From: Pyxidicoccus sp. MSG2
GTDB taxonomy: Bacteria; Myxococcota; Myxococcia; Myxococcales; Myxococcaceae
Direction of reading: 5' to 3'
DNA length: 64,000 nt
Assembly: GCF_026626705.1 (NCBI RefSeq)
Contig: NZ_JAPNKC010000001.1
Coordinates: 8,574,001-8,638,000 of the forward strand
Position 1 is the first letter of the stretch; each line of letters begins with the position of its first letter. Both the position numbers and the translations under genes were made by a program. Below the pieces are notes generated by a model. It did not search any database. It was not told the origin of the DNA and worked only from the letters and a program-made list of their open reading frames with translations. Shown here one piece after another: positions 48,777 to 64,000 of the stretch.

Positions 48777-48845
48777 GGCGCGCCTCCAGGGTCCGTGGCG
48801 CGCTTCCGCGCGCCTGCCGGGCGGGACGGCACAGGGAGAAAAACG

Positions 48846-49286
<441 letters not shown>

Positions 49287-61555: not shown

Positions 61556-62728
61556 CTACCAGGACGACGTCTGCTCGGGCAGCTCCGCCGTGAAGGTGCT
61601 GCCCAGGTTGACGCGGCTCTGCACCGTGAGCTTGCCGCCCATGGCCTCCACCAGGGCGCGCGCCACGGTGAGGCCCAGGCCGGCGCCCTTCTCCGGCGCC
61701 TTCGTCGTGTAGTAGGGCTCGAACACGGCCCCCACCTCGTCCTCGAAGATGCCGATGCCGGTGTCCTTGACGAACAGGCGGGGGCCGAAGTCGCCGAACA
61801 TGTCCGGCAGCTCCACGCCCACGTGGATGCGGCGCGGGCGGTCGTTCACGTCCTCCACCGCGTCCGCCGCGTTGGCCAGCAACTCCACCAGCACCTGCTC
61901 CAGCTGGCGCCGGTTGAAGACCACGGCAATCGGGTCCTCCGGCAGCAGCACCGTCACCTCGGCGGAGCCCAGGCGGCCGGCGGCGCGCATCCGCTCCACC
62001 ACGCCGGGCACCAGGTCGCGCAGGTCGAAGCGCTGGATGTCCTTGGGGCTGGTGGGGCCGAGCGATAGGAGATGTTGGCCGTGCAGCCGCATCTGCTCGC
62101 CCGCCACGCCCAGCTTCTTGAGCTCCGCGGGGTCCGGCGGCAGGCCCTGCTGGGCCCGGCTCTGCACGTGCGCCAGGGCGCGCTGCAGGCCCTCGCCCAC
62201 GCGGCCCAGGTTCTGCGCCACGTCCGCCGCCAGCGTGCCCAGGCGCGCCAGCCGCTCCATCTCCACCCAGCGCATGCGCGGGTCCAGCAGCGCCTCGGCG
62301 CGCTGGCCACCCGCCTCGCGGTGGGCCTTCAGCTCCAACAGGGTGTGGACGCGGACCTTCAGCTCCAGCGGATCCAGCGGCTCGGTGATGAGCAGGTCGT
62401 CCACGCCCGCCTCGAGCACCTCGCGGCGCGTCTGCCGGTCCGCGCGGGGGGTCAGCATGAGCACCGGCGGAGACGAAGGGCCGCCCAGCTCCGCCACCAG
62501 ACGCCGGTAGGCCGCCAGGCCGTCCGTGCCGGGCCGCTGCACGTCCAGCAGCACCAGGTCCGCCGCCTGCCGGGACGCCGCCGAAGCCGCCGCCTTGCCG
62601 CTGGCGGGCAGTACGTCATAACCAGCAGGGGCGAGGATGGAGTACAGCCGCTCCAGGCCACCCGACTGCACATCCACAGCCAGCACCCGAGGCCGGTACG
62701 TTGCGGTCATTCCCGTCGTCTCCAGCAT
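61556..62728 (-). CDS. Hybrid response regulator / histidine kinase-like protein without phospho-His
   Basis: A 390-aa protein (ATG 62728; ATG 62710 also possible). Receiver domain (about 13-130): phospho-acceptor Asp62 in LVLLDVQRPGTDG and Thr93 are kept, but the conserved Lys is Glu116 (LLITEPLDP), and the N-terminal acidic pair is reduced. A helical dimer domain has ARLGTLAADVAQNLGRV, where the usual VAHE carries Gln172 instead of His. The ATPase domain is intact: LVELLANAADAVED (N box), VKDTGIGIF, FEPYYTTK and GLGLTVARALVEAMGG. It can probably bind ATP but not autophosphorylate in the usual way. Confidence 0.85.
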   Translation of the reverse strand: MLETTGMTATYRPRVLAVDVQSGGLERLYSILAPAGYDVLPASGKAAASAASRQAADLVLLDVQRPGTDGLAAYRRLVAELGGPSSPPVLMLTPRADRQTRREVLEAGVDDLLITEPLDPLELKVRVHTLLELKAHREAGGQRAEALLDPRMRWVEMERLARLGTLAADVAQNLGRVGEGLQRALAHVQSRAQQGLPPDPAELKKLGVAGEQMRLHGQHLLSLGPTSPKDIQRFDLRDLVPGVVERMRAAGRLGSAEVTVLLPEDPIAVVFNRRQLEQVLVELLANAADAVEDVNDRPRRIHVGVELPDMFGDFGPRLFVKDTGIGIFEDEVGAVFEPYYTTKAPEKGAGLGLTVARALVEAMGGKLTVQSRVNLGSTFTAELPEQTSSW

Positions 62729-62787
62729 CACGCCACCCCCACCAGGTGACCGGGCAGCGACACCCGGAAGTTCCCAAGTAGACCCTA

Positions 62788-62854
62788 CGGACCGCATACC
62801 GGACTGGATGCGACTTCCCCCCCGGAGCCTGCAACCAGTCCGGTACGCGGTCCG
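62788..62854. repeat. 20-bp inverted repeat in the intergenic region
   Basis: Arms at 62788-62807 and 62835-62854 are complementary at 19 of 20 positions, with a 27-base spacer; in the minus-strand RNA the exception is a G-U pair. It lies 60 bases upstream of the kinase-like gene. It may be a leader stem-loop, an attenuator, or twin protein-binding sites. This 354-base gap to the permease gene holds no gene that I can see. Confidence 0.65.
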
Positions 62855-62902
62855 AAACCTGACCGAACACCATGCGAGGCGCGTGCCGGATGGGTGGCGG
62901 GA

Positions 62903-62925
62903 GTTTCGTCGGACTCTGACGAAAC
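62903..62925. repeat. Short inverted repeat, perfect 8-bp stem
   Basis: GTTTCGTC and GACGAAAC (62903-62910 and 62918-62925) around a seven-base centre, in the same gap as the 20-bp repeat. On the plus strand it is followed by AAAAGG. Confidence 0.5.
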
Positions 62926-63005
62926 AAAAGGTGGATCATCCCAGTAACGGCGGGGGGTTGGACTGTCTGCTCCCGGGCTGAACCCGCACCGGGGGTGTTG
63001 ATCAA

Positions 63006-63067
63006 GTGACGGGTGGGGGTCACTCCTGACCAGGAATCAATATTGACCCGGGTGTTTTAGTACCCGG
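63006..63067. terminator. Group of small palindromes after the ABC permease gene
   Basis: Three symmetric motifs: GTGAC/GTCAC (63006-63010 and 63019-63023), the exact palindrome TCAATATTGA (63037-63046), and the hairpin CCGGGT/ACCCGG (63048-63053 and 63062-63067). The last lies 16 bases downstream of the permease stop codon and may end its transcript. Confidence 0.4.
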
Positions 63068-63082
63068 TGCCTGGGGAGGGCC

Positions 63083-64000
63083 TCAGCGCGACTCCTGCTC
63101 ATAGGGCACGCCGAGTGCGGCGGGGGCGCTGCTGCGCTGCCCCTGGAGTGTGAGGAGGGCCAAGGTGAGCACGTAGGGGAGGGCCTGCAACATGCCCTGG
63201 GGTACGACCTCCAGCAAGCCGGGAGCGCTGGAGGCGAGGCCGATTCTCAGTGCGTCGCCGAAGGCGAAGAAGAGGGCGGCGAGGAAGGCGCCCACGGGCG
63301 TCCAGCGGCCGAACACCATGGCGGCCAGGGCGATGAAGCCCAGGCCCGCGGGGGTGTGCTGCTCGAAGCGGCGCAGCACGTACGTGGACAGCACGGCGCC
63401 GCCCAGGCCCGCCAGCAGGCCGCCGCCCAGCACCGCGCCCCAGCGCAGCCCGGCGACGCTCAGGCCCAGCGTGGCCACGGCGTGGGGCTTGTCGCCCACC
63501 GCGCGCAGGCGCAGGCCCAGCGGCGTGCGCGCCAGCAGGAAGTGGAGGGCGAAGGGCAGCACCAGCGCGAGGTAGGTGGGGGCGAAGTGGCCGGACAGCG
63601 CGCTCAGCACCGGCACGGACTCGAGGCCGGGGATGGACCAGCGCGTGGCGATTCCCAGGTCCGGCGTGCCGTTGGCTCCGTACTGGGACTCCACCAGGAA
63701 GGTGCCGCCGGCCAGGGCCACCAGGTTGAGGGCGATGCCGGACACCACCTGGTCCGAGCGCCAGCGGATGCTGAGGAAGCCGTGCACCGCGGCGAACGCC
63801 GCGCCCGCCAGCATGCCCACGCCGACGGCCAGGGGCACGGGCATCTTCAGCGCCGCCACCGCCGCGCAGAAGGCGCCCACGCGCATCATCCCCTCCACGC
63901 CCACGGACACCACGCCGGCGCGCTCGGAGAGCACCGCGCCCAGTGCCGCGAAGACGAGCGGAGGCATCGCGTCCAGCGTGGAGAAGAGCACTTCGCGGAT
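63083..64000 (-). CDS. Nucleoside/simple sugar-type ABC transporter permease (5' end outside window)
   Basis: A permease of the BmpA/NupPQ-type, 302 aa from an internal GTG at 63991; the frame stays open to the window end and the true start is probably just beyond. The motif FAALGAVLSERAGVVSVGVEGMM is the usual signature, followed by about eight further helices and GFIALAAMVFGRWTPVGAFLAAL. It probably works with a second permease and an ATPase upstream (outside the window). Substrate most likely nucleosides. The C terminus ends QESR. Confidence 0.88.
   Translation of the reverse strand: MREVLFSTLDAMPPLVFAALGAVLSERAGVVSVGVEGMMRVGAFCAAVAALKMPVPLAVGVGMLAGAAFAAVHGFLSIRWRSDQVVSGIALNLVALAGGTFLVESQYGANGTPDLGIATRWSIPGLESVPVLSALSGHFAPTYLALVLPFALHFLLARTPLGLRLRAVGDKPHAVATLGLSVAGLRWGAVLGGGLLAGLGGAVLSTYVLRRFEQHTPAGLGFIALAAMVFGRWTPVGAFLAALFFAFGDALRIGLASSAPGLLEVVPQGMLQALPYVLTLALLTLQGQRSSAPAALGVPYEQESR

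Follow-up and report, generated by a model that had tools for sequence, protein, structure and literature searches.

The gap between an ABC permease gene and a signalling gene in the genome of Pyxidicoccus sp. MSG2, a member of the myxobacteria (social bacteria of the soil), carries a long inverted repeat. It is likely to fold into a hairpin close to the 5' end of the mRNA of the signalling gene, behind a conserved sigma-54-type promoter. Judging from the sequence comparisons below, this hairpin (P1) resembles a small RNA structure with a regulatory role, and we are moderately confident that it belongs to a structured leader, specific to this lineage, of a sigma-54-activated gene, whose product combines a receiver with a HATPase_c domain (hereinafter REC-HATPase). 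If true, this would be a compact, conserved and testable stacking of transcriptional and probable RNA-level control on a single myxobacterial signalling gene, the product of which itself is without the histidine that defines its family. The alignment from 45 genomes shows experimenters which bases to alter. Among the matches listed, no paper describes this leader in its title or at the start of its abstract, which does not establish its absence from print.

The locus and the REC-HATPase gene

The source genome measures 13.3 Mb and has its closest relatives in Myxococcus and Pyxidicoccus; the window, i.e. the whole stretch of DNA analysed, covers 64 kb of it. On the minus strand, the ABC permease gene is followed by the gap and then by the REC-HATPase gene, with these features in order of transcription:

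63083..64000, minus strand: upstream gene, a BPD_transp_2 ABC permease, with its stop at 63083 and running off the window
63016..63065, minus strand: conserved block A, the dyads GGGT-N8-ACCC and GGTC-N6-GACC, a candidate enhancer
62941..62960, minus strand: block B, CAACCCCCCGCCGTTACTGG, conserved in 45/45 regions
62873..62888, minus strand: sigma-54-type promoter motif CGGCACGCGCCTCGCA, with -24 GG and -12 GC, found once per region in 45/45, 10/12 matches to the consensus
62862, minus strand: predicted transcript start, placed 12 nt past the -12 C
62788..62854, minus strand: hairpin P1, a 20-bp stem that contains one G-U and has an apical part rich in G, beginning at the predicted +9 of the transcript; recognised by fold, conservation and covariation
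62750..62767, minus strand: hairpin P2 (CCGGG...CCCGG), located past P1 and ahead of the start codon, found in 29/29 non-Corallococcus orthologs
62733..62740, minus strand: Shine-Dalgarno-like G-rich stretch, assigned by inspection
61556..62728, minus strand: downstream gene, the REC-HATPase protein of 390 aa, in which Q (T in some orthologs) replaces the phospho-acceptor histidine

We take the ATG at 62728 (MLETTG...) rather than a longer frame at 62797 to be the start of the REC-HATPase gene because the GTGATG at 62731 is conserved; both this GTGATG and the ATG are kept in 27/27 same-genus genomes. The start so placed agrees with a preliminary description of the region, made from the window's sequence, which had put the repeat 60 bases before the gene. 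A DNA search of 61 genomes found matches in 27, all from the same genus and including the window's own genome. At the protein level, a search of 96 genomes of the family recovered REC-HATPase matches in 59 at E <= 1e-40: 45 of the 96 have a close ortholog (27 Myxococcus/Pyxidicoccus, 16 Corallococcus and 2 Citreicoccus), and the remaining 14 have relatives at 34-43% only. The permease gene lies upstream of the REC-HATPase gene in all 45 genomes with a close ortholog, and the distance from the permease stop codon to the REC-HATPase ATG is 345-359 nt in each of them.

The protein was labelled kinase-like in the preliminary description, and the label is right. At the position of the H-box histidine, 27 of the 30 orthologs examined (out of 45) have a glutamine and 3 a threonine, while histidine is found in 57/60 of the distant relatives where the column could be aligned. 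The receiver aspartate is present in 30/30, and the ATP-binding motifs are largely kept. Autophosphorylation of the usual kind may thus be lacking in this protein. The receiver of all 30 orthologs examined also displays a TEP motif where lysine-proline is usual in receivers.

The promoter motif and the upstream blocks

Between the permease gene and the repeat, the window reads CGGCACG-N4-TCGCA (62888-62873), a motif of the GG-N10-GC type that is absent from the preliminary description. Each of the 45 orthologous regions contains a single GGCA-N8-GCA, 196-202 nt from the permease stop, and the GG and GC dinucleotides (-24/-12) are 10 nt apart in all of them. According to PMC9765219, the sigma-54 consensus is TGGCACG-N4-TTGC(T/A), and one listed M. 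xanthus site also has TCGC. The window matches this consensus at 10 of 12 positions and the 45 regions at 8-10; the -24 motif starts with C instead of the consensus T in 44/45 and the TT of the -12 element is not kept. A score of 10 is reached by 4 sites in the 64 kb window, and in 5/45 regions another position ties. Since three other sites of the window score as high, the case for the motif is one of conservation and not of score. The motif is read directly from the alignment, and the use of sigma-54 and the start of transcription at 62862 are predicted from it.

All four of the smaller repeats listed in the preliminary description are present, of which two are conserved and two are not. The 8-bp arms at 62903-62925 are found as exact arms in 1/45 orthologous regions and near-exact in 2, and the 10-bp palindrome TCAATATTGA at 63037-63046 is conserved in 2/45. 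The 6-bp arms at 63048-63067 have a core kept as GGGT-N8-ACC[C/T] in 35/45 regions, and the 5-bp arms at 63018-63031, which are one among several 5-bp candidates, are kept as GGTC-N6-GAC in 45/45. Both conserved repeats fall within block A, where the dyad centres are 33 bp apart and the GGTC stands 143-146 nt upstream of the -24 GG in 45/45. Block B precedes the same GG by 73 nt (31 genomes) or 74 nt (14 genomes). According to PMC11841059, a promoter under an NtrC-like regulator has two to three dyads to which the regulator binds, and for this reason we regard block A as a candidate enhancer; a search for its pattern elsewhere in the genome found no second copy above a reversed-pattern control. 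The GG-N10-GC motif with candidate activator sites upstream is shared with the M. xanthus sigma-54 promoters under the NtrC-like activators Nla28 and NmpR. However, by inspection, the dyads found here (GGTC-N6-GAC and GGGT-N8-ACCC) match neither the Nla28 half-site CT[C/G]CG[C/G]AG nor the NmpR site GCGCA-N5-TGCGC.

One of the smaller repeats had been thought placed to serve as a terminator for the permease gene. A scan of 62600-63200 returned no site with a G+C-rich stem and a T-run, and the best-placed candidate, the 6-bp repeat, belongs to the conserved dyad block. The scan thus gives no support to an intrinsic terminator or attenuator.

The hairpins and their conservation

The 20-bp inverted repeat is confirmed, and its strength far exceeds what chance would give. 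Its arms (62788-62811 and 62831-62854) are 92% complementary over 24 nt with a spacing of 19 nt, and it is the sole inverted repeat in the 64 kb window that scores at least 14; it scores 18, whereas shuffling the 371-nt region 100 times under an order-1 Markov model gave 10 at most. Folding of the leader as minus-strand RNA, which the preliminary description had proposed, gives 20 consecutive pairs with one G-U among them, as it had described, and the 371-nt region as a whole is more stable than expected (z = -3.18; 0/100 shuffles equally stable). It had also proposed a search for other copies of the arm sequence. Neither a DNA search of the 13.3 Mb genome (next match 24 nt, E 0.023) nor a covariance model of the leader run on the same genome (next match E 1.2) found a second one, and a dispersed repeat of the REP or MITE type is rejected on this count.

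The predicted leader is about 134 nt long, and a pattern search places the first base of the P1 5' arm at the predicted +5 to +9 in 45/45 regions. The preliminary description had held that a transcript start downstream of the repeat would speak against its reading; the predicted start lies upstream of it. When the covariance model was run against the 96 genomes of the family, it matched the orthologous place in 45, the same 45 that have a close ortholog. The only other matches at E <= 0.01, in a search whose stricter filters lose weak matches, came from 6 of the 45 genomes, where the model also matched this palindrome on its opposite strand. With its matches restricted to a single orthologous place, the leader is thus tied to one gene, and is neither a dispersed repeat nor a shared riboswitch. 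It resembles riboswitches and other Rfam leader RNAs in being a structured leader ahead of a start codon, but differs from them in lacking an Rfam family at gathering score and in being found before one gene only. At E values up to 10, Rfam likewise offered nothing credible for it, the matches to microRNA families and Scr3920 being far below threshold.

Comparison with related genomes, another check suggested in the preliminary description, revealed that the repeat is conserved, though much diverged outside its own clade, and that its pairing is maintained by changes that, read on the sense strand, are compensatory or lead to G-U. The alignment used for covariation comprises 45 sequences with flanks (MAFFT, sequence alone) and fits the structure better, so that the counts from it lean that way; a hairpin-only MAFFT alignment of 23 sequences was rejected as the gap of one clade fell inside the stem. 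Pairs 2, 3, 4 and 6 of P1 are standard in 45, 45, 45 and 44 of the 45 sequences, one and the same pair occurring as G-C, G-U or A-U, and the first six pairs include 40 cells with G-U and none with A-C. In the 9-bp stem taken as a whole, 85.3% of the cells are paired against 81.9% in shuffles (0/500 as high) and 19-46% in slid registers. Four of its pairs have changed on both sides, and two of the five covariation measures are unexceptional (89/500 and 51/500 shuffles as high).

We also reconstructed the changes by parsimony on the tree of the neighbouring permease gene, taking one of several equally short reconstructions. The 26 reconstructed changes cover pairs 2-6 of P1 and pairs 1-6 of P2 (29 genomes), leaving outside pairs 7-9 of P1 and also its pair 1, which has 2 reconstructed changes, both to mismatches in Corallococcus. 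A standard pair is preserved in 22 of the 26: 10 lead to G-U, 9 turn a G-U into a Watson-Crick pair again and 3 are double changes, while the other 4 are mismatches, none of them A-C. Both hairpins, together with this conservation and covariation, are thus evident in the aligned sequences.

The clade of the window (7 genomes, L008-L014) has P1, including the loop, 97% identical and the spacers 43-61%; for comparison, the first 40 nt of the REC-HATPase gene are 88% and the permease gene 90% identical. Segment-wise identities of this kind were also computed for Corallococcus, the 2 Citreicoccus genomes being left out. In the window's clade, P1 with its loop is thus better conserved than the start of the REC-HATPase gene and the permease gene, and more than stem pairing alone requires.

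Speaking against a structured leader, the stability of the fold is uneven across the lineages. Choosing the best-folding end for each hairpin and shuffling each of the 45 regions 200 times, we found that at most 1/200 shuffles is equally stable for P1 in 21/45 and at least 3 in 22/45, with P1 unclosed at minimum energy in 2/45. Both unclosed cases come from the M. vastator clade of 9 genomes, in the other 7 of which P1 is equalled in stability by 8-49/200 shuffles (z -0.6 to -1.8); here, the 3' arm of P1 has decayed (90% identity vs 97% for the 5' arm), and P2 has at least 8 pairs in 9/9. P1 is also weak in Corallococcus L082-L085 (7-135/200 shuffles as stable), in L031 (38) and in L033 (54). 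Throughout Corallococcus, pair 1 of P1 is unpaired (16/16) and pair 5 is U-U in 7/16. RNAalifold on all 45 sequences yields little past a 5-bp outer helix (-5.6 kcal/mol). What is conserved in the leader is thus its place and the outer stem of P1 rather than a uniform structure.

Proposed control and competing readings

Under the favoured reading, an activator bound to the upstream dyads (block A and perhaps B) would switch on the sigma-54 promoter at 62873-62888, and RNA synthesis would begin near 62862. The transcript would then fold P1 within its first 80 nt, followed by P2, ahead of the ribosome-binding site. Any effect of the hairpins on expression would most likely be exerted on the RNA, via the stability of its 5' end or the access of the ribosome or an RNA-binding protein, such that protein output would be set at transcription and also thereafter.

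The preliminary description had offered a leader stem-loop or a twin operator as the nature of the repeat. The former is favoured by a position past the predicted start, by the conservation of that position and of the outer stem, and by the covariation on the sense strand. The latter would make the repeat a DNA operator, with two mirror-image sites for a regulator just past the promoter, and a site just past the start would suit a repressor. It could also accommodate the M. vastator clade, where the 5' arm is kept better than the 3' arm, a difference left unexplained by RNA pairing. Arms of 20 bp that are 27 nt apart are nonetheless long for an operator. Moreover, Watson-Crick pairs have changed to a sense-strand G-U 10 times and to A-C never, despite a near-even background of substitutions in the gap (198 C-T vs 167 A-G); the chance of 10/10 going to G-U is about 0.004, calculated by hand from the directional counts and rough in view of the related sequences and the chosen reconstruction. 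Since pairing is kept via compensatory and G-U changes with none to A-C, the covariation pattern favours an RNA over a DNA operator, which we regard as unlikely. That the hairpins form the body of a separate small RNA like Pxr of M. xanthus, the downstream gene being reached by read-through or processing, seems rather unlikely too. Pxr is the closest case described so far; in PMC5568312 and PMC5684412, it has a predicted sigma-54 promoter, a 108-nt coding region and stem-loops, and lies in a 413-bp gap. The present locus is alike in being myxobacterial and in its predicted sigma-54 promoter with an upstream candidate enhancer region, its several stem-loops and an intergenic gap of similar size, and the near-identity of the loop as well as the stem of P1 in the window's clade suggests a sequence-specific role. 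However, pxr is a separate RNA beside nla19, whereas the gap here (compared by locus and description) is flanked by the permease and REC-HATPase genes and not by nla19 and the NADH dehydrogenase gene. The hairpins are also oriented in the same direction as the next gene, for which a scan found no sigma-70-like promoter either. It is mainly because no terminator-like site was found that we prefer a leader to a separate small RNA.

A third possibility is that the 5' arm of P1 is conserved as the start of an encoded leader peptide, with the stem as a by-product. All 16 Corallococcus genomes (L068-L078, L080, L082-L085) possess a frame of 39 or 43 codons from the predicted +4 (ATG in 15, GTG in 1), the stop codon of which starts 3-5 nt ahead of the ATG of the gene, and in both Citreicoccus genomes an ATG at +4 opens a frame of 15 codons. 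Yet the Corallococcus frame shows no codon-position bias (variable columns 23, 28 and 21) and no constraint on codons (median dN 0.32 vs dS 0.28; dN<dS in 46 of 111 usable pairs out of 120), and the position lacks a start codon common to Myxococcus; we regard this reading as very improbable. The earlier remark that no coding explains the repeat holds in the window. We further considered, as decidedly unlikely, a new lineage-specific RNA element in which the sigma-54 promoter and the 5'-terminal hairpin would have evolved as a unit of fixed spacing. It would act both as the REC-HATPase leader and, once released, as an RNA working in trans, and in Corallococcus an almost leaderless frame coupled to the start of the gene would overlap it.

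Elsewhere in the window, the minus strand encodes a class A RNase P RNA at 48844-49241, which is all that reaches an Rfam gathering score in the 64 kb.
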